From: Ignavibacteriota bacterium
GTDB taxonomy: Bacteria; Bacteroidota; Ignavibacteria; Tepidaquicellales; Tepidaquicellaceae
Assembly: GCA_026390735.1 (NCBI GenBank)
Contig: JAPLFJ010000066.1
Coordinates: 1 to 44,615, forward strand
Reading direction: 5' to 3'
DNA length: 44,615 bases
The first letter of the stretch is position 1. The number at the start of each line of letters is the position of its first letter. Positions 20,236-43,718 of the stretch are shown here, piece by piece. Below the pieces are notes generated by a model that saw only the letters and a list, made by a program, of their open reading frames with translations, was not told the DNA's origin and ran no database searches. The translations under genes and the position numbers were made by a program.

Positions 20236-20236
20236 A

Positions 20237-22029: not shown

Positions 22030-22030
22030 A

Positions 22031-23311
22031 TTAGTAAATTCCTTTTGTTGTTAAATAATTAATTTTTGCCTGAAGCAATTGAACTTTATGACTTTCAAGC
22101 ATAAGTTGTGACTGAGTTTTATTGTTAAGTTCTGTTAAATACACTGTTGAAGTAATTGTGCCGTTCTGGAGCTGAGAATATGTAGTGGCAACGATTTTTT
22201 CTCTTAAAGAGATTAATTCTTCATCTTTCCTGATAAGGTCTTCATATTTCCCGATATCAGATTTATATTTTTCAAGAACAACTTTAAGATTTTTATCGAA
22301 CGTTTCTTTCTGAGAATCGACAATCTTCTGATTAATCTGATAAATCTGCTTCTCATTGTTATCCGAATTCCAGTTGACAGGGTTCCAGGTGAAGTTAAGT
22401 CCGACCATATAGAACGGTTTGAATGAATTATCGAGCATATTAAGTCCGGGTCTGCCGAAACCTGCCTGTCCGAACGCCGATATTTTAGGAATAACGCGTG
22501 AGTTTACAACATCTGTGTAGGAATTCAGCTGGTCTTTCTGAAAATCGAAAAGTTTGTATTCGGGTCGGGAAGAAAAATCATTATCGTAAGTTATTTGCTG
22601 CAATTCGGGTTTTGACAATACCGACGATTCTGATATTTTTGAACCGATAAGTTCACTAAGCATTTTAAGTGAGCCAAGTTTATCGTTATCTATATTCTGA
22701 ATCTCCTGTTCGGTCTGGATCATTTGAGCCTGCAGAATGTAGAGATTGTTAACAGTCATAGTCTCGTTCTTTATGCGGGACTCAGTTTCGGCAATTCTTG
22801 ATTTTAAATCGCTGATGAGCAATTCATTTACTTTCTTCTTTTCCTGAAGAAGCAGGACAGCGAAATACAAATCGTTTATCTTTTGCTTAAGAGTGAATAA
22901 GTCAACCTCAACTTTTTGTTCATCCACATCAACCTGTTTCGATTCAGTAATTTTAAGAGAAGATGTATTTCCTCCATCGAACAAAAGCTGGCGGAGATCC
23001 ATACTTACTTTATACTGGTCTTTGTTCAGCACAGGAACCTGAAACATCGGGTTGTTGATTTCCATTTGTGTAACTTCAGACTGATAGGAAACCTGCCCCT
23101 TGAAAGAAATCTGAGGGAGATAATTAACACCAATATTATTGAGTCTCAAACTGTTGATTGATTTATAGTAAGATTTCTGTTTTGCATTCGGATAGTTTTC
23201 ATATGCTGTTTTATAACAGTCCTTTAATGTGAAAGTGTTTTCCTGAGAACGCACTGCAGAAATATTTATAACCAATAAAACAATCAGCGGTAATAATTTT
23301 TTGTACATCAT
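22031..23311 (-). CDS. TolC-family outer-membrane efflux protein
   Basis: About 426 residues from the ATG at 23311. That start is chosen because it avoids overlap with the regulator gene (stop at 23313) and puts the signal peptide (MMYKKLLPLIVLLVINISAVRSQ) at the N terminus; an ATG at 23332 would add seven residues. The mature protein has two outer-membrane efflux repeats rich in long helices, with LNNIGVNYLPQISFKGQVSYQS, MDLRQLLFDGG and NFTWNPVNWNSDN at the expected barrel positions. It should form a trimeric exit duct for the ABC exporter encoded downstream. Confidence 0.92.
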   Translation of the reverse strand: MMYKKLLPLIVLLVINISAVRSQENTFTLKDCYKTAYENYPNAKQKSYYKSINSLRLNNIGVNYLPQISFKGQVSYQSEVTQMEINNPMFQVPVLNKDQYKVSMDLRQLLFDGGNTSSLKITESKQVDVDEQKVEVDLFTLKQKINDLYFAVLLLQEKKKVNELLISDLKSRIAETESRIKNETMTVNNLYILQAQMIQTEQEIQNIDNDKLGSLKMLSELIGSKISESSVLSKPELQQITYDNDFSSRPEYKLFDFQKDQLNSYTDVVNSRVIPKISAFGQAGFGRPGLNMLDNSFKPFYMVGLNFTWNPVNWNSDNNEKQIYQINQKIVDSQKETFDKNLKVVLEKYKSDIGKYEDLIRKDEELISLREKIVATTYSQLQNGTITSTVYLTELNNKTQSQLMLESHKVQLLQAKINYLTTKGIY

Positions 23312-23312
23312 A

Positions 23313-23960
23313 TTAATGAACTTTAATTGCATTTATAATAAATTTAGAAACTTCTTTCTTTCTGGATTCAAGGAACTTCAGATATTCTTCATCGCCGAAA
23401 CTCAGCATAGTTTTTATAATCGGTTTTGCAGCAACGGGAAACACACATAATCCAATAATATTAATGATAAGTTGTTTAGGGTCTACGGGATGAATAATTC
23501 CGAGAGAGATAGCAGTTTTAATGTCACTAATGAATTGCATTTCAATGTTGACACCGCTCTCAAGAAATACATTTTTAATCCTGTCAGGATTCTGATGAAC
23601 TTCGGTAATAATGAATGCAGGAATAAATGAATTCTTCATAAGCAGTTCAACATAGTTCTCGACGAAGTATTCAATTTTCTCAAGAAGAGGCTTATCAACA
23701 TTCAGAAGTTCTCTTATTTTCGAGAAAAAGTTTTTAGCAGCGTCCTGGAAAACGGCGTCGAAAAGTTTATCTTTAGAGCGGAAGTAATAATGAAGCATTG
23801 CTTTGTTGATTCCTGCTTCGTCTGCGATTTCCTGCATACGTGCACCATACATACCTTTAATCTGAAAGACTCGTTTCGCGGCTTCAAGGATATCCTTTTC
23901 AGTTGAGTGATGTTTGTGTTCCGGCTGTATTTCCTCTTTAATCTCTATTATTTCGTCCAT
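23313..23960 (-). CDS. TetR/AcrR-family transcriptional regulator
   Basis: A 215-residue one-component regulator. The N-terminal helix-turn-helix spans about residues 20-66 (ILEAAKRVFQIKGMYGARMQEIADEAGINKAML as separate helices, then YYFRSKDKLFDAVF). The helical C-terminal ligand domain has no assignable specificity. It is the first gene of the efflux operon (regulator, channel, adaptor, two ATPases, two permeases), so it probably autoregulates and controls all seven genes. A palindrome lies 16 bases upstream of its start. Confidence 0.92.
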   Translation of the reverse strand: MDEIIEIKEEIQPEHKHHSTEKDILEAAKRVFQIKGMYGARMQEIADEAGINKAMLHYYFRSKDKLFDAVFQDAAKNFFSKIRELLNVDKPLLEKIEYFVENYVELLMKNSFIPAFIITEVHQNPDRIKNVFLESGVNIEMQFISDIKTAISLGIIHPVDPKQLIINIIGLCVFPVAAKPIIKTMLSFGDEEYLKFLESRKKEVSKFIINAIKVH

Positions 23961-24233: not shown

Positions 24234-25226
24234 TTATATTTTAAATGAAATAACAGATAGAGTTATTAACATTGGGTAAAGTTCATAGTATACTCTTATT
24301 TCATCAAATATCCCAAAAAAAATTGTCGAAATGATTAGAGGTAAAGCAACAATAAGAAAAGATGTTTTTAAAAATATGGGTTTATATTTCCATTTATATA
24401 AAGATAAACATAGAAGTAATATTAAAAAACCAGAGTTCATTACTAATGCCAAGACTGACCTCAAGTTATTTTCAAGGTAATGGTATTCTAAAAATGAACC
24501 TCCGTTTTTCTCAAAAACAAACAGTAAAAATGTTTTAACAAGAATAAATGTAAAAACAAAGAGGACAAAAAGCCAAATCAACTTACCAGATGGTATTTTT
24601 TTAAAATAATATACCACAAAGATCAACGCAAGCAAAACAGATGTTTCCTTATTAATTACTGCCAGAATATATACAACATAGAATAAACCAAATTTTCCCC
24701 GATAAAGCAAATAAATTGCAAGAGTGAACAAGAACAATTGCGGTGCATCATATAAATGAAAACCGTATCGGAAAAAACCGGGTAACAAGATCAATGATAT
24801 ACCAGAAATAATACTTTTGAGTATATATTTATTCCCCGACTGTATAAACAAGAAAATAAATTCCGATATAGTATACCCAAAACCGATATAGAACAAAATT
24901 ACAAAAACAGAAGCAATAAATAACTTAAGTGACAATTCCTTCGGCCAATTTAATAACTCTAAAACGCTCAACACTTTTGGAATGTTACATACGAAGTCGG
25001 TCCAGTTATTTTTTACATCCTCTGGAATACAACTATAAATACATCTTACTGTTGTTGGCAGTAAAGTTCTGTATACATATGGTTTTAAATATTTTCCCTC
25101 GATCATATCGTTCATTTGAGATGGTAATTGTTCTTTGTGAACAGTTGTTAGTGAAAACAAATAAACAACAATACTGAAACTAATTACAATTGTATGGTAA
25201 GAATATTTAGAAAATATATTCAACAT
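24234..25226 (-). CDS. Polytopic membrane protein, GT-C-like
   Basis: A 330-residue integral membrane protein with about eight to nine hydrophobic segments. The first loop contains KPYVYRTLLPTTVR, and later YGFHLYDAPQLFLFTLAIYL and VINKETSVLLALIF. The R-x-L-L-P loop and the N/K-E-T motif after a short-helix pair are reminiscent of GT-C type glycosyltransferases or related predicted membrane proteins in surface polysaccharide loci, but I cannot name a family. It is 130 bp downstream of the C25 peptidase gene in the same direction. Confidence 0.6.
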   Translation of the reverse strand: MLNIFSKYSYHTIVISFSIVVYLFSLTTVHKEQLPSQMNDMIEGKYLKPYVYRTLLPTTVRCIYSCIPEDVKNNWTDFVCNIPKVLSVLELLNWPKELSLKLFIASVFVILFYIGFGYTISEFIFLFIQSGNKYILKSIISGISLILLPGFFRYGFHLYDAPQLFLFTLAIYLLYRGKFGLFYVVYILAVINKETSVLLALIFVVYYFKKIPSGKLIWLFVLFVFTFILVKTFLLFVFEKNGGSFLEYHYLENNLRSVLALVMNSGFLILLLCLSLYKWKYKPIFLKTSFLIVALPLIISTIFFGIFDEIRVYYELYPMLITLSVISFKI

Positions 25227-25356: not shown

Positions 25357-28300
25357 CTATTTCAGAACTGCCAGTTTTTTAATGTCAGAGACTATATCTG
25401 TAGAACCTTTAAAAACAACACGGTACATATAAACACCATTTGCAATATAGTCACCATCGCCATCGCGGCCATCCCACTGAATCTGATTAAAGCCTATACT
25501 TGCAGGAACGATGATTTCCTTAATTACCCTGCCGGCAACAGAATAAATTTTAATCTTACATTCTGTCGGTAACTGATTTCCGGTAAGAGTGAATGAGAAT
25601 GTTGTCTGAGTCTTCATTGGGTTCGGGAAATTATTAACATCTTTCAGAGAAGTCTCATTAGTAACATTCAGCACAAACTTTGTGGTATCGTACGCATTAT
25701 TCTTGTAAGTAATGAGTTTTAAATCATTCAGACCGTTTTGGAGCTGAGGAGTGAATTTTAATATCAGGTTCCCTTTTTCAGTTTCTTTGATTAAATTAGT
25801 TTTCGTGTTTGTCTTTGAATTTCCGGGATTAAGAGAAATAAACTGATTGTTCAGCATAATTCTGAAAACTGATGTATCTGACGTAAGCAATTCGTCTACA
25901 GATTTGCCGGAAAGTTTAATTAGCATATCAGGATTTGAACGAACGTAGTCATTTCCAAAAAGTTTAATGCCGTCGGAATAAACTTCAGTGTTTAAATCAG
26001 TGATAGAACCTTTAACGAAGAAAGTGGAAATAACAGAATTATTATAATCATAAATATCATTCTGACTAAGAGCATTAACTTCAAGAACGATAGAAATCTG
26101 ATTATTGTATTTTTTATGAATCGGAAGTCCGTTTACTTTAAAAGTAGCTTTCACAAACAGAGAACTATCAACTTTAAGTTGCGAGAGGATTGTATCCGAA
26201 CGCAGCAACACTTTATTATTAGCAGCATCGAGAGCATAGAAAGACCTGATGTGTCCGTTAAGAGGAACATATCCAACATTATAGTAAGAACCGCCGATGC
26301 CAATACTGTCACCCATACTAACGATTGAGTCAGATTTAAAGATTGAATTATTATCGAGCGCAATCTCCGGAGGGCCAACATAGTTCAACGAAATACCTTT
26401 GAACACAGGCGACTGAGAACCTGATACGGAATCTATAGAAAGTCTTGTAATAAGTTTAAGGTACGGATACTGATATGCATTAATCCCTGACAGGTTAACA
26501 TTATTATAAGTTGTAACATTAGACATTAACAGTGTATCCTGATTATTTCTCTTTATGCCATAAACATCAAAGTACAAACTTGAATTCGGGAACACATCCT
26601 GCTGCCAGTTAAAGTTCTGCCAGGTCTGAGCAGGCCCGAATGTTTGTGTGATGGAACCGTTGGAGTAAAGGAAATTATAATTTCCTTGTACGATAGATGG
26701 ATTTGCATCTCCTCCTCCTCCAGGATAATAGTTGAAAGATTCTTTTTTTAACGAAGCATTAGTTCCTTGATATCCAATCAGACTCCATGTATTATACCAT
26801 CCGAATGAACCAACAGAGTCAGCATAATTACTACCAAACTCTTTAAGTTTATTTCTGGCATTTACAGATAAAGTTATACCACCGCTAATTGCAAAAGCTT
26901 TACAAACAAAAAGATATTTCGTGCTATCAAATGAATTTAGGAAGGTTATAATTGAATCTGATACAGAAGTGTTTGTAACTAAATAATTTTTCCTCTCCAA
27001 CACAGAACAAGTCAATTTATCAATTTTAAATAAATTTAAGCCCGCATAACTAGGGTCAAATGGAAATGACTTTTTACCAAGATTTAAAAACGAAGGCGCC
27101 CAAGGGAACACTGTTTGAGAACGAATTGAAACATCGGTATAATAATTTTGCAAATTAAATGGAGGAGTTAATGTAACATTATTTAAATCATCTGAAATAA
27201 ACTGGTTGCCATAATTTTTAGAAACCCAAATTATTGAGTCACTTGAAACAATATTTGCTTTATATTTTAACTTCCTAATTCCTGACCACCCAACTGAATC
27301 GCCATTAACAATAGTGTTTAATCTCCAATAATAAACAAGGTTTGAATCGAGTATGGATAATCTCTTTTTAAATTTTCCAACTAAACCATTAATGTTTGTT
27401 GAGAAGTATGATTGTATTATTGAGGAGTTAAAATTTAATGTTGTATCAATTTGCAATAATAATTTAATCGTTTTATTTCTATAATCTAAGTTTGGATTAA
27501 CCCCAACAAACTCTACAGAATCACTCGTTATAGTTTGGTTATCGTATGGTTTCAATGGAATGTACGAATAATTCTTCACAATAATTGGAAAAGCAATAAT
27601 ATTGTTTGTTTTTAATTCATTCGGATACCAATTTTCTGGATCAATAATAACACTCATTGCAAAACTACCCGAAGAATCTATTGTGAATTTATAATTTAAC
27701 GTATCAACAAAATCAAAACCATAAATAATGGTGTCTTTGACTAAATAGGAGGCATTGTTTTTGTTCAGTTTAAATCTGATTTTGCAAGAATCAGCATGAG
27801 TGCCTATGTTCTTAGGAATGATTCTTAAATTAATTTTTTCTTTTGAATTTGGATTAATATTTGAAATTACATAATCATTGTCTTGAATATAAAATTCAGG
27901 ATATGACGGAAGAATCAATTTTGCTGCTGGATCACCAATAAGATTATAACAATTATTTGTGTTTTTTGCAGCAAAACTTGAAGAATCCGGAGATAATCTC
28001 TGGGAAGCAAAAGTTACAATATCACCTATTCTTCTTAAAGTGTCTAAATTTAAACCATTTAATAAGTAATCATTAAAAGTATTGCCAGTACCGGAAAAAC
28101 TCCAACCAGTAGTACCAACAAATCCAATAGCTCCTTTATTTGAATAAGTAACATATTTTTCACCATAACTTCTTATCTTTGGTTCGGCCATCTTTCCCGT
28201 AAAGCAAGTCATACTAAAAATCAAAGGTAATTTATTTCCATTAGATAGTATATTGGGGTCATCAAAAACATAATCCCAATACCCATTACCGGCATGTGCT

Positions 28301-30264
28301 ATAAAATTTGCAATCAATGTGCCTCTGTTAATCGTATTTTTTATTGAATCCGAATAATTATAATTTAATAGTCCTAGACTATCATTTATATAAATTCTTG
28401 TTGGTGTTGAACTTGATGGTGGTGAAGTTATATAAGAATTTATAAAATAATCAGATTGAGCCATAAATTGTAATTGATCAGAACGAGAATACCCACCCGT
28501 TATAAATAAAGGCTGTTTTGCCCATACCTGCAATCCCTGACCTTCATACTCTATTATTTTATTCACCATATCCTGAGCTTCCTGGTTAGTATAAGCAGGT
28601 AATCTTCCCACAGAAATATTATGAGTATACGTAAAAGCACCAAAATTGAAGTTTGCAAAATATCCATCAGTTACGGGATTTCCATAAACCGGCACTAAAT
28701 TTTGATAATATATTGACGAAGCACCAAAATTCTTTTTAGGGTCAACAGAACCTCTTCCAAACAAGCAAATATATTTAACTTTTGGTGTAGCCCACACGTC
28801 AAACACATTCTTTGCAAATCTTCTGACAGCGACAGGGTCTTCCATACCATAATTAAAGACATCGTATATGTCTTCAATTTCAGCTTTGAATGAACGGAAT
28901 CCATCGTGAGTATTTCTGTAAATTCTTAACTGTTCTGCCGGTGTTTCAAATAATTTATTATAGACTAATAAGTAATCAGCACCTGTTGATGATATAACCA
29001 GATTTGGAACCTGTTTTTGCTTTATCCGTGTTGGTTTTTTAGTAATGTTTTTGTTTACAATTTGATAGTTCCCATTACCCTTTCCAACAAAGAATAGTGT
29101 GTCATTCGAAAAAGAATAATTGATAATTCTTGTATTATTCTTTGTGTCAAAAATGTTTAATTGGTTTACAGAATTATATCCTTTTACTTTAAAAATTTTG
29201 GAAGTGGAATCTGCTATTTCACTGTTAAAATAAATTGCATTACTGTCAAAAACGAACTGTCTTGGATAAAACACTTCAAACATATCAAAATTAACTACTC
29301 CTGCAAAACCTGTTTCAGGTCTGTATAAAAACCTCATAGTGTTATTCCCATTTACCAACGAAGAACTTGAAAAATATACAGTAGTATCAAATCTGTTAAA
29401 ATTATCTCTGTACATTGTATCAAGTTGTGTCGTGTTCATTTTAAGTGCTATTCGATGTTCGTTGATAACAGTCGTACTTTGATTTACTGGGTATGCAAAT
29501 ACTTTTAGTCTGCATTGTTGAGGTGTTACAGACAATGAATTTACATTAATTACCTGGTCAAAAAAATTCGAAGTTTGCAGAGTTCTCCAATACCAGCCTT
29601 CACCTACATATTTATCATTAGAAAAGTAACCATAATCAGTACCTGAAATATTCTGACCAAGAGAGTAAATTAAATCCTGCTCAAAATGCTGCTTTTGATA
29701 ATAATAATCATTTGGGTATGATGTTGCAGAACTATTATTGTAATCAGAAAAACGCAGACCGTAAGAGCCTCCCCAGCCTACAAAGTATGCTGAAGTGTCA
29801 GAATACAAATTATAAAATTCGTCTGTAGTATATACAACATTATTATTAATATCGTGAGCATTCGTTAAGCCTCCATAATTTCTGGTACCATAGAAATCAA
29901 AATAATCCGAATCGTTGAATATGCCGTCCTGTTCTCCCAAAAAATATATTGGTATTTGATTACCTTTATAATATACCTTTACTGTTCGCGGATCAATAGT
30001 CGTAACTGTAATCCCAGCATTAACAAAATCATTCTTGTCTATTCTATACATACCGTCGCCAGCTATGTACATTTTTAAGTATGTCTGGTTTGGAGTAATC
30101 CAGTTGTAGTTCTGAGAAAAAGACAGATTCGAAATAATGAAAAGAAATAAGAATAAGTAATAAACGGAAAAAAGAACAAAACGCTGATGTATGCTGATGG
30201 AACGGATTTTAATAGATATACCATTGCATAACTGTGAATAATTGTACTTCTGCGGGTTCTTCAT
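25357..30264 (-). CDS. Gingipain-like C25 peptidase with ILEI-like and T9SS domains (copy A, PorU2-like)
   Basis: A 1635-residue exported protein. An unusually long n-region precedes the signal core (about 29-50), cut after SFS. Then: an N-terminal beta domain (NYNWITPNQTYLKMYIAG, DPRTVKVYYKG); the C25 peptidase domain (about 430-780) with catalytic H657 (AHAGNG) and C687 (SMTCFTG); CARDB-like and fibronectin-like beta domains (about 790-1000, KPYDNQTI); an ILEI/PANDER-like domain (about 1075-1165, with GGITLSVNARNKLKEFGS and WSLIGYQG); more beta domains; and a FlgD-like T9SS tail (1541-1635, WDGRDGDGDYIANGVYMYRV, ending KLAVLK). It resembles T9SS sortases of the PorU/PorU2 type or a large secreted protease. 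It is 20 bases downstream of its paralogue. Confidence 0.85.
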   Translation of the reverse strand: MKNPQKYNYSQLCNGISIKIRSISIHQRFVLFSVYYLFLFLFIISNLSFSQNYNWITPNQTYLKMYIAGDGMYRIDKNDFVNAGITVTTIDPRTVKVYYKGNQIPIYFLGEQDGIFNDSDYFDFYGTRNYGGLTNAHDINNNVVYTTDEFYNLYSDTSAYFVGWGGSYGLRFSDYNNSSATSYPNDYYYQKQHFEQDLIYSLGQNISGTDYGYFSNDKYVGEGWYWRTLQTSNFFDQVINVNSLSVTPQQCRLKVFAYPVNQSTTVINEHRIALKMNTTQLDTMYRDNFNRFDTTVYFSSSSLVNGNNTMRFLYRPETGFAGVVNFDMFEVFYPRQFVFDSNAIYFNSEIADSTSKIFKVKGYNSVNQLNIFDTKNNTRIINYSFSNDTLFFVGKGNGNYQIVNKNITKKPTRIKQKQVPNLVISSTGADYLLVYNKLFETPAEQLRIYRNTHDGFRSFKAEIEDIYDVFNYGMEDPVAVRRFAKNVFDVWATPKVKYICLFGRGSVDPKKNFGASSIYYQNLVPVYGNPVTDGYFANFNFGAFTYTHNISVGRLPAYTNQEAQDMVNKIIEYEGQGLQVWAKQPLFITGGYSRSDQLQFMAQSDYFINSYITSPPSSSTPTRIYINDSLGLLNYNYSDSIKNTINRGTLIANFIAHAGNGYWDYVFDDPNILSNGNKLPLIFSMTCFTGKMAEPKIRSYGEKYVTYSNKGAIGFVGTTGWSFSGTGNTFNDYLLNGLNLDTLRRIGDIVTFASQRLSPDSSSFAAKNTNNCYNLIGDPAAKLILPSYPEFYIQDNDYVISNINPNSKEKINLRIIPKNIGTHADSCKIRFKLNKNNASYLVKDTIIYGFDFVDTLNYKFTIDSSGSFAMSVIIDPENWYPNELKTNNIIAFPIIVKNYSYIPLKPYDNQTITSDSVEFVGVNPNLDYRNKTIKLLLQIDTTLNFNSSIIQSYFSTNINGLVGKFKKRLSILDSNLVYYWRLNTIVNGDSVGWSGIRKLKYKANIVSSDSIIWVSKNYGNQFISDDLNNVTLTPPFNLQNYYTDVSIRSQTVFPWAPSFLNLGKKSFPFDPSYAGLNLFKIDKLTCSVLERKNYLVTNTSVSDSIITFLNSFDSTKYLFVCKAFAISGGITLSVNARNKLKEFGSNYADSVGSFGWYNTWSLIGYQGTNASLKKESFNYYPGGGGDANPSIVQGNYNFLYSNGSITQTFGPAQTWQNFNWQQDVFPNSSLYFDVYGIKRNNQDTLLMSNVTTYNNVNLSGINAYQYPYLKLITRLSIDSVSGSQSPVFKGISLNYVGPPEIALDNNSIFKSDSIVSMGDSIGIGGSYYNVGYVPLNGHIRSFYALDAANNKVLLRSDTILSQLKVDSSLFVKATFKVNGLPIHKKYNNQISIVLEVNALSQNDIYDYNNSVISTFFVKGSITDLNTEVYSDGIKLFGNDYVRSNPDMLIKLSGKSVDELLTSDTSVFRIMLNNQFISLNPGNSKTNTKTNLIKETEKGNLILKFTPQLQNGLNDLKLITYKNNAYDTTKFVLNVTNETSLKDVNNFPNPMKTQTTFSFTLTGNQLPTECKIKIYSVAGRVIKEIIVPASIGFNQIQWDGRDGDGDYIANGVYMYRVVFKGSTDIVSDIKKLAVLK

Positions 30265-30284
30265 ATTAATATAATTGTATTATT

Positions 30285-33200
30285 TTATTTAAGTATTACA
30301 AGTTTTTGTAAAGATGTTTCCTTTTTATTATTACCCTCTATAATTAACTTATAGAAGTATACACCATTTGCAATATAATCACCATCTGCATCTCTTCCGT
30401 CCCAGAATATCTGATTATAGCCAATATTCAATGGAGTTTCAATAGTCTTTATAAGCCTTCCTGCTACGGTAAATATTTTAATTTTTGACATAGAAGGAGG
30501 CATATTTCCTGAAAGGTTAATCACAAAATTAGTCTCATTCTTCATTGGATTAGGGAAATTCTTTAAATCAATAATTTTCAAATCGGGATTAACAGTCAGA
30601 TAGTAAATTGAAGTATCAGCATAATTCCCGTTGTTATCATAGGAAACAAAGTCAAACCTGTGTTCACCGTCTTCAAGTTTAGGGTTATAATATAATGTAG
30701 CCTGAAGGGATTTACTGTTTACAAACTGTAAATCAATAAGCGGGTTCTTCTGGCCGCCTATAAAGTATGGAACATAAACATTATCAAGTTTTACCCGAAT
30801 GTTTGAAGTATCCTTAATAAATATTCTACTGTCATCAAGAAATTTTAACACGACTTTCGGGTTTGACTGAACAAAGTCACCGGAAAAAACTTTAGTGCCA
30901 TCAAACGTAATGTCCATAAGTGGCTTCGCGGTATCACCTTTCACTACAATTCTTGTAACAGCAGTATTATTATAAGTAAAGAACTCATTCTGTTGATTAA
31001 TCAGAGATGTTTCAAAAAACAGAGTAATTGTATCGGATAGTTTATTCGGGTTTCTAAGCCCTATTGTGGATAATCTTACAACTGATGATGTTACAGAGTC
31101 GATTTTCAAAACATAACTTACTGTATCAATCCTTAAAGTTTTCAGACCGAATGGAGATGTTGCAGTCCATTTATTCACAACACCAACAGCATTTGCATAA
31201 CCAAAATTACCATAGTTCACTGATATATTTAACGTATCTCCATCCTGAAAAACCGAATCACTTTTCACAAATGAATAATTATCAACTATAATTTCTGCAG
31301 CAGGAATGTATGTGAATTTAAAATTATTTAAGACAGGAGATTCTGTACCATTCAAAGAGTCGATATGAAGTTTTGTAATCAACCTTAAGCCTGGATACAA
31401 TGAAGGATTTACAGTATCGAGGCTAACAAAAGAATTATTACTAAGGTTAGTATATAATGATACAATATTGTTTTGCCTTGTAATACCATTGACATCAAAG
31501 GACAGATATGAACTTTGAGGTACTATACCAGACCATTTAAACGACCCCCAGGATTTAGCAGGAACATAATTGTGATATACGTATGCCGAATCGTAATAAA
31601 AATTCGGCTGTATTGAGCATGTTGCCGGTCCGGAAACAGGAGAGTATTTTTCTGCTTTTACAACGTTTGGAAACTGACTATAACTTACGAAACTCCAGAA
31701 TGAAGAATAACTCTGTAAATTAACCGAGTCAACCGCCGTACTTCCAAACAATTTAATCTTAGCTTTCAAACCACTATTCATTCCGAAATTAGTGTTGTAA
31801 GGAATCGTTTTAATTATGGCTAAAATGTTCTGCTCGGTAAAAGTGTTCAGATATGTTAATGCAGAATCATTAGACAGGTTTGTGTTAAACGTAAAATGTC
31901 TTGAATCAATTATTCTTGCGTTAACTTTATTAATTTTAAAAATTAATAATCCACCCCAGTAAATCTGATCAAATAAAGATATCGTTTTATCGTTTAGAAT
32001 CATCTTTGTCGGTTCATAGTCAGCCGAACCCCAAGACTGAGCTGTAATATTACCATTATACCTTTTAATTAAGATACTATCACCGGTTCCCCAGGCATTA
32101 AACAAGTCACTACTACTATACTGTTTAATCTTTTTCCTGTATATATTTACAACCTGGTCTGATGTCTCCGTTGGTTTCTTAGAACTATTAATCCCTGTAA
32201 TTGAATTACTATAAATAAACCTTCGGACTTCCGACCACCCTGAAGAATCATTATTAATTACGGCATTCATTCTGAAGAAATATACAACATTGGAATCTTT
32301 AACCGGGAAAGGTACTTTAAACTTTGTTATCATCCCGCTTGGATTATTCACAAAATAAGTCCGTGATAATGCCGAGTTATAATTTTGCGTAGAATCAATC
32401 TGAAGTATTAATTTAACATTATTGTTTTTCAGATCAATATTCGGATTTATACCAACAACCTCTACAGAATCAGTTGCTATAACCTGATTATCTATTGGTT
32501 TTAAAGGAATAAAAGAGAGATTTTTCAGAGCAAGCGGAATAGAAAGGTTGTTATTAAATTTCCTCTCCTTAGTATTCCAGTTATCAGGATCCAAACCCAA
32601 TTGAACAGAATAATTACCTGCAGAATCAAGAACAAAATTATAATTAAGTGTATCTATTAGCCCAAAATTATATAAGATAGTATCTTTTACTCTATAAGAT
32701 ATATTATTCCTTAAAATCTGAAACCTTATTTTAACTGAATCAGCATTAATACCATAATTTTTAGGATAAACCGTTAGTTTAATTAATTCTCTGATTGAAG
32801 GAAATGGATTAGCAAATTTATAATCGGAAGGTTCAAACGCAAATTCAGAATAAGTGGGTAACAATAATTTTGCAGCGGGGTCTCCCAGCATTCCATAACA
32901 ATTGATGGTATTTCTTGCCGCAAAACTCAGCGAGTCAGAGGAAAGGGTTCTGGAGGCATACCTGACTAGGTCTCCAACTCTTCGTATTGTATCTTTTGTA
33001 AAATTCTTAATAAGGTATTCGTTAAATGTATTTCCCGAACCTGAGAAACTCCATCCTGTAGTGCCAATAAACCCTATAGCACCCTTATTTGGCATAATAA
33101 TAAACCTCTCTCCGAAACTCCGGAACTGGGTTTCCGAATTTTTACCTGTAAAACAGGTCATACTAAATATAACCGGCATTCGATACTGATTAGAAAGAAC

Positions 33201-35132
33201 ATTCGGGTCATCCAGACCATTATCCCAGGTATTGCTTGCTGCATGTCCTATATAATTAGCAATCATGCCGCCTGTGTTTAAAGCATTTTTGATAGAATCC
33301 TGGTAATTAAACGTAACATATCCTGATGTATCATTTCTGTATATTCTTACAGGATATCCTGAAGTAGGGGCAGGCTTTATATAAGTGTTTATGAAATATT
33401 CCGACTGTGAGGCAAACTGTAACTGTTCCTGCAGTGTTGTACCCCCTGTTATAAATACAAAATTCTTAAACCATCTTGCGGGTACAGAACTTTGATTTTC
33501 ATACTGAATTATATTATTAACAATATCCTGCCCTTCCTGCTGAGTTAAAGCTGGAATTCTACCGATAGATATCTGATGATAATATGTGAATGTCCCCATA
33601 TTGAAATTTCCAAAGTAACCGTCTGAAGGAGGGTTTCCATAAACAGGGACAAGGTTTTGATAATACAAAGAAGAACCTGAATTCTTTTTAGGGTCGAGAG
33701 AACCTCTTCCAAAAAGACAAAGATATTTAACCCTGGGCAGCTGCCAGTTATCATAAGCATTTTTCACAAAATATCTGACTGCAACAGGATTTTCCAAACC
33801 GTAATTAAAGACATCATAAATATCTTCAATTTCCACTTTGACCGCCCGGAAATTATCCTGAGATGCTCTATACTGCCTTAAGGCTTCGGCAGAATTTTCA
33901 AGGATTTTATTATAAATGATTAAGTAATCAACTCCAGTTGAATTTGTTAAAAGATTAGGTACCTGCCTTTGTTTAATACGCAAAGGCTTTCTGCTGTTAT
34001 AAGCATTAACTAATTCATATTTACCGTTTTGTTTTCCTGTAAATATCAAAGTATCGCTTATATTGCTATAACTTGTAAGGCGGCAATTATTCCTGACGTC
34101 ATAAAAACTTAACTCATTTGCTGGAACAAAGGAATTAACCTTAAACCTAACAGCAGAAGTGTCATTCCCTGAGTTAAGAAAAGATAATCTGTTATTCTCA
34201 AAAGTAAATTTTCTTGGATATTGGAGTGTAAAACAATCAAACAGCATTCTTCCCACATAAGACCCTGCGCCAGTATAGGTAAACGAAACAGTGTTTATAT
34301 TAACATTGGAAAGCAATGATGATGAAAATAAAATAGTAGTATCAATTTTATTATAATTATCTGTTTCAAGTGTATCAATAATAGTATTGTTCACGCGGAC
34401 TATAAGTCTATGCTCGTTGGATATCGAATCCGAATATGAATTTGGATATGCAAAAACTTTTAACAGACAGTTTTGTGGTACATCTGATAAATATGGAGTT
34501 CTAAAAGTATCGGATAAAATATTTCCTCTTTGCAGTTCACGCCAGTACCAGCCCTCACCCGAAATTTTTTCATTGTTAAAATTTCTATAATCGGTACTGT
34601 TCCGATGCTCCCCAAGTGAATATATTAAATCTTTTTCAGACTGCAGTGGCGAATAAAAGTAATTTTGTCCGAATGGAATTGTCGAAGAGTTATTGTAATC
34701 AGTATACCTAAGCCCGTATGCGCCATCCCACCCTACCCAGTAAACGCTCGTATCTGAATATAGATTATAATATTCGTTAGTGGTATAATCCGGAACATTC
34801 GTCCCACCGGATTCCTTATAAGCAATAGTGGTACCGCCATAATTTCTCTGGCCATAAAAGTCAAAATAATCATTATCATCAAATACCCCATTCAGTTCAC
34901 CAAAGAAATACACAGGAATCTGAGCTCCCTTATAATAGACTTTTACTGTTCTTGGGTCAATGGATGCAGTATTTATGCCGGCATTAGTAAAATCAGACTT
35001 GTTAATTCTGTACATACCATCATCTGCAACATACATCTTCAGATATGCTTTATTCGGAGTAATCCAGTTATAATTCTGAGCAAACGCTAAATTAGCCGAA
35101 AGTATAAACAAGTAAAAAATACGTTTCATCAT
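30285..35132 (-). CDS. Gingipain-like C25 peptidase with ILEI-like and T9SS domains (copy B, PorU2-like)
   Basis: A 1615-residue paralogue of the next gene, with the same domain order. Signal peptide MMKRIFYLFILSANLAFAQ; N-terminal beta domain; C25 domain (about 400-750) with H630 (GHAASN) and C660 (SMTCFTG), the same 30-residue spacing as in copy A; CARDB and fibronectin-like regions (KPIDNQVIATD at about 877); ILEI/PANDER-like domain (about 1060-1150); FlgD-like T9SS tail (1524-1615, WDGRDADGDYIANGVYFYKL, ending KLVILK). In P. gingivalis the C25-like PorU cleaves sorting domains and attaches cargo to a surface glycolipid; whether these act as sortases or secreted proteases is open. It starts 4 bases after the wecG-like gene. 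Confidence 0.85.
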   Translation of the reverse strand: MMKRIFYLFILSANLAFAQNYNWITPNKAYLKMYVADDGMYRINKSDFTNAGINTASIDPRTVKVYYKGAQIPVYFFGELNGVFDDNDYFDFYGQRNYGGTTIAYKESGGTNVPDYTTNEYYNLYSDTSVYWVGWDGAYGLRYTDYNNSSTIPFGQNYFYSPLQSEKDLIYSLGEHRNSTDYRNFNNEKISGEGWYWRELQRGNILSDTFRTPYLSDVPQNCLLKVFAYPNSYSDSISNEHRLIVRVNNTIIDTLETDNYNKIDTTILFSSSLLSNVNINTVSFTYTGAGSYVGRMLFDCFTLQYPRKFTFENNRLSFLNSGNDTSAVRFKVNSFVPANELSFYDVRNNCRLTSYSNISDTLIFTGKQNGKYELVNAYNSRKPLRIKQRQVPNLLTNSTGVDYLIIYNKILENSAEALRQYRASQDNFRAVKVEIEDIYDVFNYGLENPVAVRYFVKNAYDNWQLPRVKYLCLFGRGSLDPKKNSGSSLYYQNLVPVYGNPPSDGYFGNFNMGTFTYYHQISIGRIPALTQQEGQDIVNNIIQYENQSSVPARWFKNFVFITGGTTLQEQLQFASQSEYFINTYIKPAPTSGYPVRIYRNDTSGYVTFNYQDSIKNALNTGGMIANYIGHAASNTWDNGLDDPNVLSNQYRMPVIFSMTCFTGKNSETQFRSFGERFIIMPNKGAIGFIGTTGWSFSGSGNTFNEYLIKNFTKDTIRRVGDLVRYASRTLSSDSLSFAARNTINCYGMLGDPAAKLLLPTYSEFAFEPSDYKFANPFPSIRELIKLTVYPKNYGINADSVKIRFQILRNNISYRVKDTILYNFGLIDTLNYNFVLDSAGNYSVQLGLDPDNWNTKERKFNNNLSIPLALKNLSFIPLKPIDNQVIATDSVEVVGINPNIDLKNNNVKLILQIDSTQNYNSALSRTYFVNNPSGMITKFKVPFPVKDSNVVYFFRMNAVINNDSSGWSEVRRFIYSNSITGINSSKKPTETSDQVVNIYRKKIKQYSSSDLFNAWGTGDSILIKRYNGNITAQSWGSADYEPTKMILNDKTISLFDQIYWGGLLIFKINKVNARIIDSRHFTFNTNLSNDSALTYLNTFTEQNILAIIKTIPYNTNFGMNSGLKAKIKLFGSTAVDSVNLQSYSSFWSFVSYSQFPNVVKAEKYSPVSGPATCSIQPNFYYDSAYVYHNYVPAKSWGSFKWSGIVPQSSYLSFDVNGITRQNNIVSLYTNLSNNSFVSLDTVNPSLYPGLRLITKLHIDSLNGTESPVLNNFKFTYIPAAEIIVDNYSFVKSDSVFQDGDTLNISVNYGNFGYANAVGVVNKWTATSPFGLKTLRIDTVSYVLKIDSVTSSVVRLSTIGLRNPNKLSDTITLFFETSLINQQNEFFTYNNTAVTRIVVKGDTAKPLMDITFDGTKVFSGDFVQSNPKVVLKFLDDSRIFIKDTSNIRVKLDNVYVPYFIGGQKNPLIDLQFVNSKSLQATLYYNPKLEDGEHRFDFVSYDNNGNYADTSIYYLTVNPDLKIIDLKNFPNPMKNETNFVINLSGNMPPSMSKIKIFTVAGRLIKTIETPLNIGYNQIFWDGRDADGDYIANGVYFYKLIIEGNNKKETSLQKLVILK

Positions 35133-35136
35133 ATTA

Positions 35137-35898
35137 TTACGTACTTTCTTTATTAAACATTAATTTAACCTTTATTAAAATAATATTAAACATAAAAACA
35201 GGAATGCCGATTATATACCTTTTCCATAATCTTTTAGGTTCCTGGAACAATCTGTACAGCCATTCAAGCCCTGTTTTCTGCATCCAAACCGGGGCACGTT
35301 TTTTAGCGCCAGACCAAAAATCAATCGCACTACCAACCAGAATAATTATGGAAGATTCCAACTTACTATAATTATCTATAATCCATTGCTCTTGTTGAGG
35401 GGTTCCAAGTCCTATTACTAATAAATCTGAATTATTACTAATTTTCAAATTACCTAACTCACATGAATATCCATCATACACGGAAACAATGTTTATATTA
35501 GAAAAGTTTTTTTCAAAATATAGAATAGTTTTGTCAGAATGGTTTCTCTGGCCACCTATAATTGTACAATTAATGTGGTTTTTATTTAGAAAAGTCAACA
35601 AATAATACCAAAAATCAGTACTAACCACTCTACGACTAAAATTTTCAGTAGCAAGACCTAACATCTTTAATCCTATATGAATACCTACACCATCCGGAAT
35701 AAAATAGAAGGGTACTCCACTCTCAAGAAATAAACTCTTTTGATATTTCTCACATGTATAAGCATTTAAATAAGACAAAACCAGCTTACGCCTATTCTCC
35801 AGGCAGTCATTAATATAGCGCAGGAAATCATCACTATAAGGATTTAAAACCACATTGAAGCTATTGAACATATTGGATATTGCTTTGTCGTTAGCCAT
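35137..35898 (-). CDS. WecG/TagA/CpsF-family glycosyltransferase
   Basis: A 253-residue GT26-type enzyme that adds a sugar (N-acetylmannosamine or its uronic acid in known cases) to a lipid-linked acceptor at the cytoplasmic membrane. Conserved blocks are VGIHIGLKMLG, LLVIGLGTPQQEQWI, and the C-terminal GSAIDFWSGAKKRAPVWMQK-TGLEWLYRLFQEPKRLWKRY, which ends in a membrane-associating hydrophobic segment. The length is normal. It lies 4 bases upstream of the C25 genes on the same strand and diverges from a glycan cluster, tying the peptidase pair to polysaccharide synthesis. Confidence 0.92.
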   Translation of the reverse strand: MANDKAISNMFNSFNVVLNPYSDDFLRYINDCLENRRKLVLSYLNAYTCEKYQKSLFLESGVPFYFIPDGVGIHIGLKMLGLATENFSRRVVSTDFWYYLLTFLNKNHINCTIIGGQRNHSDKTILYFEKNFSNINIVSVYDGYSCELGNLKISNNSDLLVIGLGTPQQEQWIIDNYSKLESSIIILVGSAIDFWSGAKKRAPVWMQKTGLEWLYRLFQEPKRLWKRYIIGIPVFMFNIILIKVKLMFNKEST

Positions 35899-36180: not shown

Positions 36181-37272
36181 ATGACCAATATTTTACATCT
36201 AAGTCCAAATTTAGAAATTGCCTGCGGAAGAACAAAATACGTATTGCGGTTGCTTGAATCAATCAAAGCCTCAGACATAAATCTTTTTTTAGGGTCAAAT
36301 GAGATTACTAATCATAACATTGTAATTCCAAAACATGTAAGATTTCTCAATATTCAAATATCTCCCGAGAAACGTAACATCATTAATTTTTTCCACTCAA
36401 TTTTCAAACTGAATGATTATGTTATTAAAAATAACATACATATTATTCATACACATCACCGTTACGCAGAAGTTATTGCCTATATTGTCAAAAGATTATT
36501 TCGAAATAACATAAGACTTATCACAAGCATCAACAGTCTTTCGGAAAGCGTGTTCCCTTTTGAGTATAAATCTGACATTCTAATTGCGGTAAGCAACTAT
36601 GTAGAAAACTTTGTTAAAGAACACCACAAAATAAATCCAGAGAAAATTATCACTTTATACAATTATGTGGAAGAATATATGTACGATAAAACTACTACAT
36701 ATAAAAAATGCGAAAACACATTAACTTTATTTGCTGCTGGCCGTTTTCACAAAGATAAAGGGTTTATGGTATTACTTAAAGCTATGAGAATTTTGACTGA
36801 TCAGAATATAAATCTTTTATTGATAGGTGAAGGATGTGAAGAATCAAACTATAAAGAATACATTGCAAAACATAAACTTAACGTTAAAATACTATCACCA
36901 AAGAAGGATCTATCACCGTATTACAGCAGTTCTCATATTTGCATAATACCTTCAATTGTTGAGCCATTACCCTACTTTATCCTTGATGCCGGAATGTTTT
37001 CAAAACCAATAATTGGTTCAAACACAGGTGGCATTAAAGAAGTTATTAGAGATAATATTAACGGATTACTTTTTGAGGCAAATAACGAGACTGAGTTGTC
37101 TAAAAAAATACTCTTTGCCCAAAACAATATTGAGTTTTGTAACTTATTAGGAGATAAGCTAAATGAAACCGTAAAAGAAAAGTTCAATGAAAGACAACAC
37201 ATAAATAAAATTCTATATTTATATAAATGTTCAAATAATCAACCTGGAAACATCTATATTAATATTATTTAA
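36181..37272 (+). CDS. Glycosyltransferase family 4
   Basis: A 363-residue GT-B fold retaining glycosyltransferase. The N-terminal half has the acceptor loop LEIACGRTKYVLRLLES. The donor-binding half has LFAAGRFHKDKGFMVLLKAMRIL, LLLIGEGCEE and the nucleotide-sugar motif E-x7-E region PSIVEPLPYFILDAGMFSKPIIGSNTGG (quoted as motifs: EPLPYFILDA). It likely adds a hexose-type sugar to a surface polysaccharide. It is the only glycosyltransferase here on the plus strand. Its 3' end overlaps the convergent GT9 gene by 42 bases. Confidence 0.9.
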   Translation: MTNILHLSPNLEIACGRTKYVLRLLESIKASDINLFLGSNEITNHNIVIPKHVRFLNIQISPEKRNIINFFHSIFKLNDYVIKNNIHIIHTHHRYAEVIAYIVKRLFRNNIRLITSINSLSESVFPFEYKSDILIAVSNYVENFVKEHHKINPEKIITLYNYVEEYMYDKTTTYKKCENTLTLFAAGRFHKDKGFMVLLKAMRILTDQNINLLLIGEGCEESNYKEYIAKHKLNVKILSPKKDLSPYYSSSHICIIPSIVEPLPYFILDAGMFSKPIIGSNTGGIKEVIRDNINGLLFEANNETELSKKILFAQNNIEFCNLLGDKLNETVKEKFNERQHINKILYLYKCSNNQPGNIYINII

Positions 37273-38298
37273 GCACAACGGATAAGTATAAACACATTTC
37301 CATTGACACCCAAAACAAGGAACTTTAGTGAAATAATAATTTATTTTACAATATCTGTTTGGAAGTGGAAAATATCTTCCATACATCCCTCCACCAATTA
37401 TTGCTACTGTTTGGACCCCGAGTTTGGTGGCAAGATGTGTTAAGCCAGAATCATTTCCAATAAATAATTTTGAATTAATTATCAAATCTACAACATCTGA
37501 TAATTTACAGTCTCTAATTGTCAAATTTGTAGCATTTCTAAAATCTTTAACTGCCCGACTTCTTTGGCTTGGCGAACAAATAATATATACCTTATACTCT
37601 TTACCTATTTCGTTAATTAGCTTTAAATAATTATCTACATTCCAATCTTTAATTTTATTAGAACTATAAGGAGAAATAGTGATATAGGGTAAACTAACCG
37701 AGCTGCTTTTATTAATATCTGTAAAAATATTATTATGACCCTCTATGGATCCTGGAGATAACATGTTTAGCAACTTTTCAATCTTCAAATATTCATTTAA
37801 TATATCAGAATACAATATAGAGGTATATTTTTTATTCCAATACCTAAAGAATTTATCACCTAAATAAAATGAATCGTTGTTACTAGTATATCTTAAAGGG
37901 GCTTCGGTTATATGTGTCAATATTTCATTGATGGGCCCTCTAGCTGGACTAACGTTATAGACTTCTGTTATCGCCAAACTTTTTATATGTTTGATAAATT
38001 TAAAATTGTAAAACCAAGAACAAATAAACCTTTTTTTATCAAATGGAATAATTTGAACCTTTCCCTTGTAATTTTTTAGAAGCCCACAATACTTGCTTTT
38101 AATCAAAAAATACACATTGTCATAGTTAGAATAATAGCTATCGTCATTCAGTAAAGCTGAAGAAATAACTATATCTCCAATTTGTTCTGTATTAATAAAA
38201 AGCAGATTTCTTTCGAAATTAGGTGGCCTTTTTTTTAAAATCGATGTGATAAAAATCAAATAAACACTAGCAATAATATTTTTGTAAGCTATTATCAT
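37231..38298 (-). CDS. Glycosyltransferase family 9 (heptosyltransferase-like)
   Basis: A 355-residue GT-B enzyme of the ADP-heptose:LPS heptosyltransferase family. The N-terminal NLLFINTEQIGDIVISSALL matches the GDxV-type acceptor loop, and KLFIGNDSGLTHLATKLGVQTVAIIGG is the conserved donor motif. The C-terminal end contains PCFGCQWKC, a cysteine cluster common in this family. An N-terminal hydrophobic stretch suggests membrane association. It overlaps the upstream GT2 gene by 4 bases. It may act on heptose or a related sugar of a core-like glycan; the exact donor is unknown. Confidence 0.9.
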   Translation of the reverse strand: MIIAYKNIIASVYLIFITSILKKRPPNFERNLLFINTEQIGDIVISSALLNDDSYYSNYDNVYFLIKSKYCGLLKNYKGKVQIIPFDKKRFICSWFYNFKFIKHIKSLAITEVYNVSPARGPINEILTHITEAPLRYTSNNDSFYLGDKFFRYWNKKYTSILYSDILNEYLKIEKLLNMLSPGSIEGHNNIFTDINKSSSVSLPYITISPYSSNKIKDWNVDNYLKLINEIGKEYKVYIICSPSQRSRAVKDFRNATNLTIRDCKLSDVVDLIINSKLFIGNDSGLTHLATKLGVQTVAIIGGGMYGRYFPLPNRYCKINYYFTKVPCFGCQWKCVYTYPLCLNNINIDVSRLII

Positions 38299-39236
38299 TT
38301 ATACCTTATTGAGTATGTATCGAAATGAATATATTTCAATATTAAGGCATTTAATTTAATTAAAAAACCGTTCTTTCTTAATTTAGCTAAATTATTTCCA
38401 AATAAAGCAGGGATTAGATACCTAATAACCATAGACTTATTTAAGCGAGAACTAATTAGCAGTTTGAAAAACACTTTACGCGCTTTTCTAATATCATTTC
38501 TGTAATATTCCAATAACCCTATTTGAAACATTGTCTCATTATTATTCAGGTCTGAATTATATTTTTGATTAAGATATTTTTCTCCTAAGAGGTAAGATAT
38601 CCTATTGCATTCAGTATTGATCGGTTTATAATTTATTCTATAATAATACAGTGTCTCCTGATGGTTATGATACTTTAGTATTCGTAATGATTTCAAAAAT
38701 AAATCTAGGTCTTCTGCATAATTTAAAGTTTCATCATAAGGAGTAATTCGTAAATATTTAGATTTTTTTAACATTATTGAAGAGTGCAAAACCGAAGTAA
38801 TAAAGGGCATCATAAACTCTATTTCCTTGTGATATTCAGGCAACCTTTTCTCGTATAATATCGAACCCGTTTCATTAATACAAAAATAATTTGTTCCCAA
38901 TACATCTATTTGAGGATTATCCAAGAGAAAGGATATTTGCTTTTCCAATTTTCTACTGTCAATAATATCGTCACCATCCATTCTACAAATAAACTCATAT
39001 TGGGCAACTTGAAGTCCGTAGTTCAGTTTATGAGAAATGTTTCCGCTAACAATAAGGTGTTTTATTCTTTTGTCTGAATAGCTTTTAATAATTTTCGATG
39101 TAATATCATCAGAATCATCCAATATAATCAGTTCAAAATCCTTGTGTGACTGACAAATAACACTATCAATGCAATCCTTAATGTATTTTTCTGCGTTTTT
39201 AACCGGCATTAAAATTGAGACTGGATACTTAGTCAT
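38295..39236 (-). CDS. Glycosyltransferase family 2
   Basis: A 313-residue GT-A fold enzyme from the ATG at 39236. An ATG at 39305 would add 23 residues that overlap the neighbouring gene by 77 bases; starting at MTKYPVSILMPVKNAE puts the conserved strand at the N terminus and leaves only an 8-base overlap. Visible are ELIILDDSDD and the DxD-type CRMDGDDIID, followed by the YAEDLDLFLKSL motif. It is similar to rhamnosyl- and galactosyltransferases of O-antigen clusters. The C-terminal region is helical and basic. Coupled to the genes on both sides. Confidence 0.9.
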   Translation of the reverse strand: MTKYPVSILMPVKNAEKYIKDCIDSVICQSHKDFELIILDDSDDITSKIIKSYSDKRIKHLIVSGNISHKLNYGLQVAQYEFICRMDGDDIIDSRKLEKQISFLLDNPQIDVLGTNYFCINETGSILYEKRLPEYHKEIEFMMPFITSVLHSSIMLKKSKYLRITPYDETLNYAEDLDLFLKSLRILKYHNHQETLYYYRINYKPINTECNRISYLLGEKYLNQKYNSDLNNNETMFQIGLLEYYRNDIRKARKVFFKLLISSRLNKSMVIRYLIPALFGNNLAKLRKNGFLIKLNALILKYIHFDTYSIRYK

Positions 39237-43361: not shown

Positions 43362-43718
43362 ATGGAAGGAAAAAGAACTTATCGAACATTCGATAAAGAC
43401 TTCAAAGTAAATGCCGTAAAACTTGTTCTTGAAGGATCAAGATCAATGGCTAAGATAGCCTCAGAACTTGGCATTAGCTCCAACACACTGACTAACTGGA
43501 AGAAAGATTATCTTAAAGACAGAGATAACTCATTTCCGGGAAAGGGCTATCAAAAGCCAGATGACGCGGAGTTCACAAAACTCAGGCGTCAGCTGGCAAG
43601 AGTTACTCAGGAGAGAGATATATTAAAAAAAGCAATGCTGTATTTACAAAACAAGGAGAGTAACTTATGGATTTATCAGGGAAAGCAGTTCAAAATACAG
43701 CATCGGACTAATGTGTGA
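43362..43718 (+). CDS. IS3-family transposase OrfA
   Basis: A 118-residue DNA-binding subunit. The helix-turn-helix reads TYRTFDKDFKVNAVKLVLEG then SMAKIASELGISSNTLTNWKKDY, followed by a leucine-zipper segment (FTKLRRQLARVTQERDILKKAMLYLQ). OrfA-type proteins usually end near this point; here the frame runs on for about 20 residues that look like out-of-frame orfB sequence. It contains a run of seven A at 43625-43631, the expected site of frameshifting for OrfAB production. Confidence 0.92.
   Translation: MEGKRTYRTFDKDFKVNAVKLVLEGSRSMAKIASELGISSNTLTNWKKDYLKDRDNSFPGKGYQKPDDAEFTKLRRQLARVTQERDILKKAMLYLQNKESNLWIYQGKQFKIQHRTNV

Follow-up and report, generated by a model that had tools for sequence, protein, structure and literature searches.

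Recurrent pairing of C25 sortase-like genes with wecG in Ignavibacteria suggests a second, sugar-specific protein-anchoring system

Why do two giant genes for proteins of the C25 peptidase family stand directly behind a glycosyltransferase gene of the WecG type, and does this arrangement reflect a dedicated way of anchoring secreted proteins to a surface glycan? The question is raised by a 44,615-nucleotide stretch of DNA from an Ignavibacteriota bacterium (contig JAPLFJ010000066.1, here C52), referred to below as the window, in a genome of 4.0 Mb and 69 contigs that is 97% complete. In Porphyromonas gingivalis, the C25 protein PorU of the type IX secretion system (T9SS) has been implicated as a sortase that cuts the C-terminal domain (CTD) from its cargo and joins the new C-terminus to anionic lipopolysaccharide (A-LPS) (PMC7468200), which PorZ is reported to deliver (PMC8545088). 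The link in this species is described as a saccharide on O-LPS, for which a Wzy route is proposed (PMC13086638). The T9SS linking sugar has been established for three oral species and varies between them (PMC7468200, PMC11969387), and several further attachment pathways are raised as a possibility by the authors of one of these reports (PMC11969387). Because the placement of one or two very large C25 genes beside glycan genes recurs across the window's class, Ignavibacteria (hereafter the class), it suggests a second, sugar-specific protein-anchoring system. The wecG–C25 module is real and widely conserved, and its function is what we infer below. What is new here is an ILEI domain, the most interesting domain of the module, and a PorU-type CTD in both C25 proteins.

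The unit lies on the minus strand and begins with a glycosyltransferase gene of the WecG/TagA/CpsF family (35137–35898; PF03808, E 1.2e-42). Four bases separate it from copy 1 of the C25 pair (30285–35132; 1615 amino acids; PF01364, E 1e-67), a predicted PorU2-clade sortase-like protein, and 20 bases lie between copy 1 and its tandem paralogue, copy 2 (25357–30264; 1635 amino acids; PF01364, E 1.1e-62). Both belong to the C25 family, with PF01364 scores of 213 (copy 2) and 229 bits (copy 1; cut-off 23) and the His/Cys dyad in place. The catalytic domain of copy 1 spans 32865–33926 (H630 codon 33243–33245, C660 codon 33153–33155) and that of copy 2 spans 27916–28974 (H657 codon 28294–28296, C687 codon 28204–28206). 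The first-pass annotation of this DNA had described two adjacent C25 genes of 1635 and 1615 codons that start 4 bases after a wecG-like gene, with dyads at H657/C687 and H630/C660, and all of this is borne out by the open reading frames and the Pfam matches. The identical domain order that it noted in the pair also holds; both proteins contain C25, ILEI and FlgD_ig domains, of which ILEI was absent from that account. The dyad residues are invariant in an alignment of 26 proteins that includes the pair, and the dyad columns read “HC” in 149 of the 151 C25 domains of a wider set, with L015 and L222 as exceptions (G and L numbers denote surveyed genomes and loci). At L015 (36–4937), the downstream copy in G008, a Lys is aligned at the catalytic His and the protein is possibly an inactive member of a tandem pair. 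Long C25 genes split into two reading frames occur at L043 (4976–9882; G008) and on contigs C44 and C58 of G016.

The best NCBIfam match of both copies is NF052324 (“putative type IX secretion system sortase PorU2”), and the second-best is the PorU model NF033707, which also covers their N-terminal region. A search of the PDB with the family profile gives 127 bits for P. gingivalis PorU and 45 bits for gingipain R. A tree of 103 C25 domains was made by a quick method with a midpoint root (the root is not inferred) and includes no gingipain or proven protease. The pair, the included PorU2 members that exceed their cut-off and most other long proteins lie on one side of a branch (Shimodaira–Hasegawa-like approximate likelihood ratio test, SH-aLRT, 96; 74 of the 103 rows), and PorU forms a separate group (support 99). 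On PorU's side are five unclassified C25 proteins together with long ones (L167, L168, second long C25s of G183, G191 and G122, and others). Because four of these five neighbour PorU (support 80), nearer to it than the pair is, the tree branches place the pair in the PorU2 clade and not as PorU's closest sister. The first-pass view of the pair as sortases near PorU, and not secreted digestive proteases, thus stands in part: the proteins are of a type, PorU2, that NCBIfam has already named, they are set apart from the five unclassified C25s, and the PDB scores favour PorU over gingipain R; they are not PorU proper, which itself lies nearer four of those five. Gingipain-like digestive proteases are disfavoured by the PDB scores and by the tree, given its lack of gingipain or proven-protease rows.

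Several smaller points concern the same proteins. The best segment of copy 1 is 86% identical to its closest match in a named record, an Ignavibacteria metagenome-assembled genome (MAG) from LaPlata. Long homologues at L155 and L167 come from records titled Ectothiorhodospiraceae and Candidatus Edwardsbacteria, which would reflect mis-binning or transfer. Residue 19 of copy 1, after a signal peptide judged by eye, is a Gln that is invariant in the 26 aligned proteins and recalls the pyroglutamate “Q-rule”, described as confined to Bacteroidetes (PMC5837995).

Are these proteins cargo of the T9SS or parts of its machinery? The window genome has at least 150 matches to the type A CTD (CTD types are treated in PMC12618676). 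When 150 of 260 candidates were scored with a profile of the pair's CTDs (copy 1, 30288–30587; copy 2, 25360–25659), the genome's PorU ranked best after the pair itself, at 98.3 bits, the next of 138 others reaching 56.3. A profile ranking was used because the letter patterns of this CTD, tried as a marker, are not confined to PorU-type proteins. Because the pair's CTD is nearest that of the genome's PorU in the ranking, this profile similarity argues for machine parts rather than cargo. The one further C25 protein of the genome, on contig C51, is PorU (912 bits, cut-off 420), followed by a PorV over its cut-off, and PorU exceeds its curated cut-off in all 59 genomes searched, the window genome included. 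A housekeeping PorU separate from the pair, as supposed in the first-pass annotation, is accordingly present. At L319 (169–2823), the tail of a 537-amino-acid protein matches the end of the PorU profile, and a PorV/PorQ-like protein slightly under the PorV_fam cut-off follows.

The link to wecG is kept in the relatives of the window genome. In the two nearest families (f1 and f2; 44 genomes), wecG lies directly upstream of a long C25 gene on the same strand in 39 genomes, with the C25 places taken from among the matches listed. The exceptions are two genomes that lack both genes (G006, 77% complete; G019, 99% complete), one with a gap of 1.46 kb (G015) and two in which the C25 gene lies at or close to a contig end (G009, G039). 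The 59 genomes searched hold 62 WecG matches, 39 of them within 700 bases of a long C25. Covariation across the class points the same way. A phylum survey covered 148 genomes, 36 of them in the class, and counted as strong a C25 match of at least 300 bits, a threshold chosen after a gap between 312 and 275 was seen. Sixteen genomes of the class have both a strong C25 and a WecG anywhere in the genome, none has the C25 only, one has WecG only and 19 have neither (Fisher 2.3e-9, kinship ignored). The two genes are within 2 kb of each other in 13 of the 16 (on opposite strands in 3 of these) and at 3, 7 and 9 kb in the others. On a PorU tree of 57 genomes, seven independent contrasts on starred branches gave six that agree with joint presence and absence, none that oppose it and one without difference (sign p 0.031); these are 57 of 64 rows, G047, G057, G053, G050, G044 and G054 being omitted as outside the evenly drawn sample and G039 with wecG off the contig end. 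The neighbouring glycosyltransferases vary between genomes while wecG–C25 persists.

A scan of named genomes, limited to the best 80 matches and with loci that overlap the G genomes, yielded 65 loci, 62 of them with a C25 open reading frame of more than 800 amino acids. WecG is found within 1.5 kb in 38 of the 62, the C25 start is less than 1.5 kb from the locus edge in 5, and neither applies in 19. Outside the class, no PorU2-type C25 adjoining WecG was seen by eye among the matches listed, the nearest being 26 kb apart (G083). A second WecG lies 13.7–16.3 kb upstream of C25 in six f1 genomes (G005, G012, G015, G020, G024 and G025; L241, L244, L245, L253, L247 and L243), and these six, the other WecG of the window genome (L239) and a WecG from G016 (L246) make up a group of eight (SH-aLRT 100). 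Descent of WecG as a single vertically linked lineage was considered and set aside; the WecG tree accounts for the state “linked” with 4 changes, where shuffles need 26.2 on average, and the deep forks are weak. Further tandem long-C25 loci of f1, at L049, L052, L055 and L057, lack wecG and lie beside glycosyltransferase family 2 (GT2) genes. In f2, a gene for a protein of 892–902 amino acids follows C25 within 6 bases at all eight loci mapped (L045, 12545–15223; L046, L047, L053, L063–L066). The one such protein scanned with Pfam has PSII_BNR, fn3 and a Por_Secre_tail CTD, and a second has a CTD by eye; the protein is a possible dedicated substrate.

What might tie such a sortase-like protein to a glycan? 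Both copies contain a domain like ILEI/FAM3 and the POMGnT1 stem (copy 1, 31680–31952; copy 2, 26764–27042). Copy 2 is over the cut-off of PF15711 (31.5 bits, cut-off 27) and copy 1 is under it (18.9 bits), its assignment resting on profile and fold. At E 0.001 the pair gives the only PF15711 matches in the window genome, whose PorU was scanned without a match, and the domain is matched in 25 of the 26 aligned C25 proteins at E 0.01. The domain also occurs beyond the class: of four PorU2-clade proteins of other origin, L211 exceeds the cut-off, L212 falls short of it, and L199 and L206 have no match. A profile of 62 ILEI homologues picks up the POMGnT1 stem (E 8.5e-19) as well as FAM3B, FAM3C and FAM3A (1.1e-18 to 2.1e-15). 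In the structure model of copy 1 residues 985–1290 (31263–32180; predicted local distance difference test, pLDDT, 92.5), the domain sits inside a beta sandwich; the 20 best Foldseek rows are POMGnT1/FAM3 entries, and superposition on POMGnT1 gives Z 19.3 and a root-mean-square deviation of 2.1 over 143 residues. The model thus shows an ILEI fold within the C25 proteins. The POMGnT1 stem, FAM3C and FAM3A are described as sugar binders, with stem contacts at R129, D179 and R207 (PMC9802357). In 18 rows from outside f1 and f2, Arg is found at the R129 place in 13 and at the R207 place in 15, and L160 keeps all three contacts. The outer sandwich was also considered as a carbohydrate-binding module; it matches CBM16, CBM61 and Fbs1 at Z 9.3–9.7, yet meprin, PNGase, Elapor1, Cry and phage tail proteins too, and says little about sugars because the fold is widespread. 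A model of the whole C-terminal half (pLDDT 87.7) has complement, macroglobulin and PorU chains on top in Foldseek, at template modelling (TM) scores below 0.2, a generic match of immunoglobulin-like (Ig) chains of which no use was made.

Pairwise WecG distances in 27 f1/f2 genomes were compared with those of parts of the C25 protein, controlled for the N-terminal, C25-domain and PorU distances. In this exploratory test, with self-chosen regions and a permutation that ignores kinship, the partial correlation with WecG is 0.51 for ILEI (permutation p 0.001), 0.29 for the sandwich, 0.22 for the CTD, 0.20 for Ig and 0.10 for residues 1281–1525, and ILEI is highest in each of the 27 leave-one-out runs. 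PorU distance (N-terminal and C25 controlled) follows the CTD (0.62), residues 1281–1525 (0.62) and Ig (0.36), and it does not follow ILEI (0.03). When each genus is represented by a single genome (14), the ILEI–WecG value is 0.65, and a wider set, 42 of the 47 linked WecG rows, keeps the same order (ILEI 0.36, sandwich 0.33). In 18 genomes, distances of the neighbouring group-1 glycosyltransferase go with those of the sandwich (0.60; ILEI 0.29). Simple hitch-hiking would be a poor explanation, since some 3 kb, including the controlled parts, separate the ILEI domain from wecG.

The two copies are 46.3% identical overall, and by region the identity falls from 62.1% in C25 through 56% in the CTD, 53% in the N-terminal part, 42% in Ig and 32% in the post-ILEI part to 26.7% in ILEI. 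In the tree, the window's upstream copy joins its positional counterparts in two genomes of the same genus (support 98), and the window's downstream copy joins those of three genomes, from the genera g1, g8 and g16 (support 99). Because the copies cluster by position across genomes, the window-type duplication looks older than these genera; the tandem pair of G014 is a separate duplication (support 99). The idea that the two copies serve different cargo or glycan draws only indirect support from this comparison, in that ILEI is the least alike of the regions compared.

The surroundings of the unit fit a glycan cluster, and the wzx, four glycosyltransferase and ligase-type genes listed in the first-pass annotation are all recovered by Pfam. 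Divergent from the unit is a group-1 glycosyltransferase gene (36181–37272, plus strand; PF00534, E 8.4e-28), beyond which lie, on the minus strand, genes for glycosyltransferases of family 9 (37231–38298; PF01075), family 2 (38295–39305; PF00535) and group 1 again (39229–40308; PF00534) and for a Wzx-type flippase (40310–41542; PF01943, E 2.1e-25), followed on the plus strand by a Wzy_C protein of the O-antigen polymerase/ligase type (41672–43231; PF04932, E 1.6e-21). The window ends in a transposase pair with HTH_Tnp_1 and rve domains (43362–44523), which we take to be of the IS3 type. Downstream of the C25 pair, a membrane protein judged by eye (24234–25226, minus strand) is possibly glycopolymer-related, from a weak match to NF046093 (cell-surface glycopolymer; E 0.0014), and a Pfam scan of it gave no match at E 0.01. 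Also downstream is a TetR/TolC/HlyD/ABC efflux cluster (17288–23960), which adjoins the C25 pair also in two same-genus genomes (L034/L035 and L036). Promoter and terminator scans of the window were not used, as the 89 promoter-like sites (shuffles: 64.7, sd 7.9) were scattered through coding sequence, and there were 4 terminators compared with 5.5 in shuffles.

Elsewhere, related loci have other partners. At L156 (13666–15154; Stygiobacter electus, a named species of the class with the module) and L162 (7132–8594; a MAG), the genes after C25 encode a Gfo/Idh/MocA-type dehydrogenase and a hexapeptide acetyltransferase, types that include WbpB and WbpD. A Wbp pathway is not claimed, this arrangement being found in 2 of 81 loci, and among the matches listed none of the L156 proteins reaches a curated cut-off. 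At L154 (13714–15057) and L215 (12387–13730), related 447-amino-acid proteins, outer-membrane barrels to judge by eye, lie beside C25, with a haloacid dehalogenase (HAD)-type phosphatase, also assigned by eye, adjoining.

How could these parts work together? We rate as evenly balanced the reading that, in many genomes of the class, wecG–C25–C25 is a module that provides a second T9SS attachment step dedicated to a glycan. In the mechanism we infer, WecG and the flanking glycosyltransferases, Wzx and the Wzy/ligase protein would build a surface glycan or its linking sugar. The C25 proteins would be exported, and their PorU-type CTD would keep them at the surface as machine parts, like PorU. The ILEI domain in its sandwich would keep the glycan of the locus close to the active site, as the separate protein PorZ does in P. 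gingivalis. The Cys would then attack some T9SS cargo at the junction that precedes its CTD, and an amine of the glycan would resolve the thioester, leaving the cargo on the glycan. A more specific and doubtful possibility is that ILEI-in-sandwich is a fast-diverging reader of the polysaccharide to which WecG contributes a sugar, such that enzyme and glycan co-diversify, each strain fixes a selected set of cargo to its own polysaccharide and the two copies read two forms of the glycan.

A number of observations weigh against this account of the module. The pair stays below the cut-offs of both sortase models, with 373 (copy 1) and 362 bits (copy 2) for PorU2 (cut-off 450) and 355 and 324 bits for PorU (cut-off 420). 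In the tree, the f1/f2 C25s are nearest (91, unstarred) to L183, L209 and L211 from outside the class, of which L209 (G131) scores above the PorU2 cut-off; the two of these that were mapped lack an adjoining WecG, L211 having glycosyltransferases instead, and the WecG-linked C25s from the rest of the class fall in other tree groups. The link may therefore have arisen more than once, or the deep forks of the tree are wrong. Lower-scoring long C25s occur in the class without WecG, and at least eight f1 genomes have further long C25 loci, the four mapped being without wecG and beside GT2 genes. WecG changes fast, and its linked members are not demonstrably one clade. With positions matched on the profile alignment, the window pair has no counterparts of R129, D179 and R207, and the 44 f1/f2 rows have Arg at the R129 place in 2 and at the R207 place in none; because these stem contacts are lost though the fold is kept, sugar binding by the ILEI domain of the window pair is a guess. 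The divergence test also suffers from its exploratory design, and within single families the ILEI–WecG value is 0.36 in f1 (19 genomes; Ig 0.42) and -0.10 in f2 (8 genomes).

Other explanations account for parts of this picture. The C25 proteins could be surface proteases, that is, T9SS-secreted hydrolases displayed in or on the capsule of the locus and cutting foreign or own proteins, with the glycan link reflecting display or shared regulation. The C25 family includes proteases such as gingipains, the pair, like cargo, bears a CTD, one and the same dyad serves for hydrolysis and transpeptidation, and two copies with diverged outer domains would suit different substrates; the position of PorU nearer the four unclassified C25s (support 80) also fits. 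However, the pair groups with PorU2 and apart from five other C25s (none a proven protease), its PDB match is stronger to PorU than to gingipain R, its CTD is of PorU type, and its presence is tied to one glycosyltransferase family; we regard a role as proteases as unlikely. We find it quite unlikely that the pair acts as a CTD peptidase without glycan ligation, releasing a few partners by cutting their CTDs, with the synteny due to co-inherited surface-antigen cassettes. The conserved dyad is compatible with such an activity and the gene right after C25 at the f2 loci, with its CTD, offers a candidate partner, but this would not account for the association of C25 with specifically WecG and with an ILEI module.

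In a further scenario, the C25 genes are redundant PorU paralogues serving as a housekeeping back-up; wecG and C25 would have entered the glycan cluster, a hot spot, on a single occasion and been kept by inheritance. Because the nearest families are closely related, 39 of 44 genomes are not 39 independent events, and long C25 genes are also found at loci without wecG. Joint loss or gain is nevertheless repeated on the PorU tree, wecG–C25 stays where the neighbouring glycosyltransferases change by genome, and the outer domains are unlike those of PorU, all of which make a back-up role improbable. If the reading of wecG–C25–C25 as a glycan-dedicated attachment module is right, a sortase-like protein tied to one glycosyltransferase family provides a direct genetic handle on the identity of the anchor sugar, and if ILEI does read the glycan, sortase specificity would be predictable from sequence.

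How does the module compare with known systems? In a literature search that left subscription journals mostly uncovered, neither the name “PorU2” nor “WecG” together with “type IX secretion” was found. Exosortase/PEP-CTERM systems at exopolysaccharide loci are likewise a protein-sorting enzyme co-distributed with polysaccharide genes (PMC7468200), a likeness by analogy only, and differ in that exosortases are described as inner-membrane proteins (PMC7468200). The POMGnT1 stem and FAM3 (ILEI) proteins share the fold and the profile match, whereas the window pair and nearly all f1/f2 rows no longer carry the contact residues, and the domain here is bacterial and within a C25 protein. PorZ, the A-LPS carrier of the attachment complex, has the task proposed here, presentation of glycan to the sortase (PMC8545088), but is a separate two-propeller protein, whereas the C25 chain of the window itself contains a fold known from sugar binders. 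With P. gingivalis PorU (PDB 6za2; NF033707), the pair shares the C25 dyad domain and the N-terminal region, and its CTD is the kind found in the genome's own PorU; it differs in falling under the PorU cut-off, in its extra middle part with ILEI and in having a true PorU elsewhere in the genome. The closest counterpart is PorU2, as best match and clade, with a similar length and with C25 and a FlgD-like CTD, the difference being that the pair is below its cut-off. At 14 PorU2-clade loci outside the class, eight neighbours chosen by size include five PorV2 proteins (NF052325) over cut-off and three matches to glycosyltransferase models under cut-offs; L199, L203, L204, L205 and L208, with PorV2 over the curated cut-off, hold putative PorU2–PorV2 sorting pairs. 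Within the window's class, 59 genomes were searched and not one has a PorV2 over the cut-off; the neighbouring place is taken by WecG.

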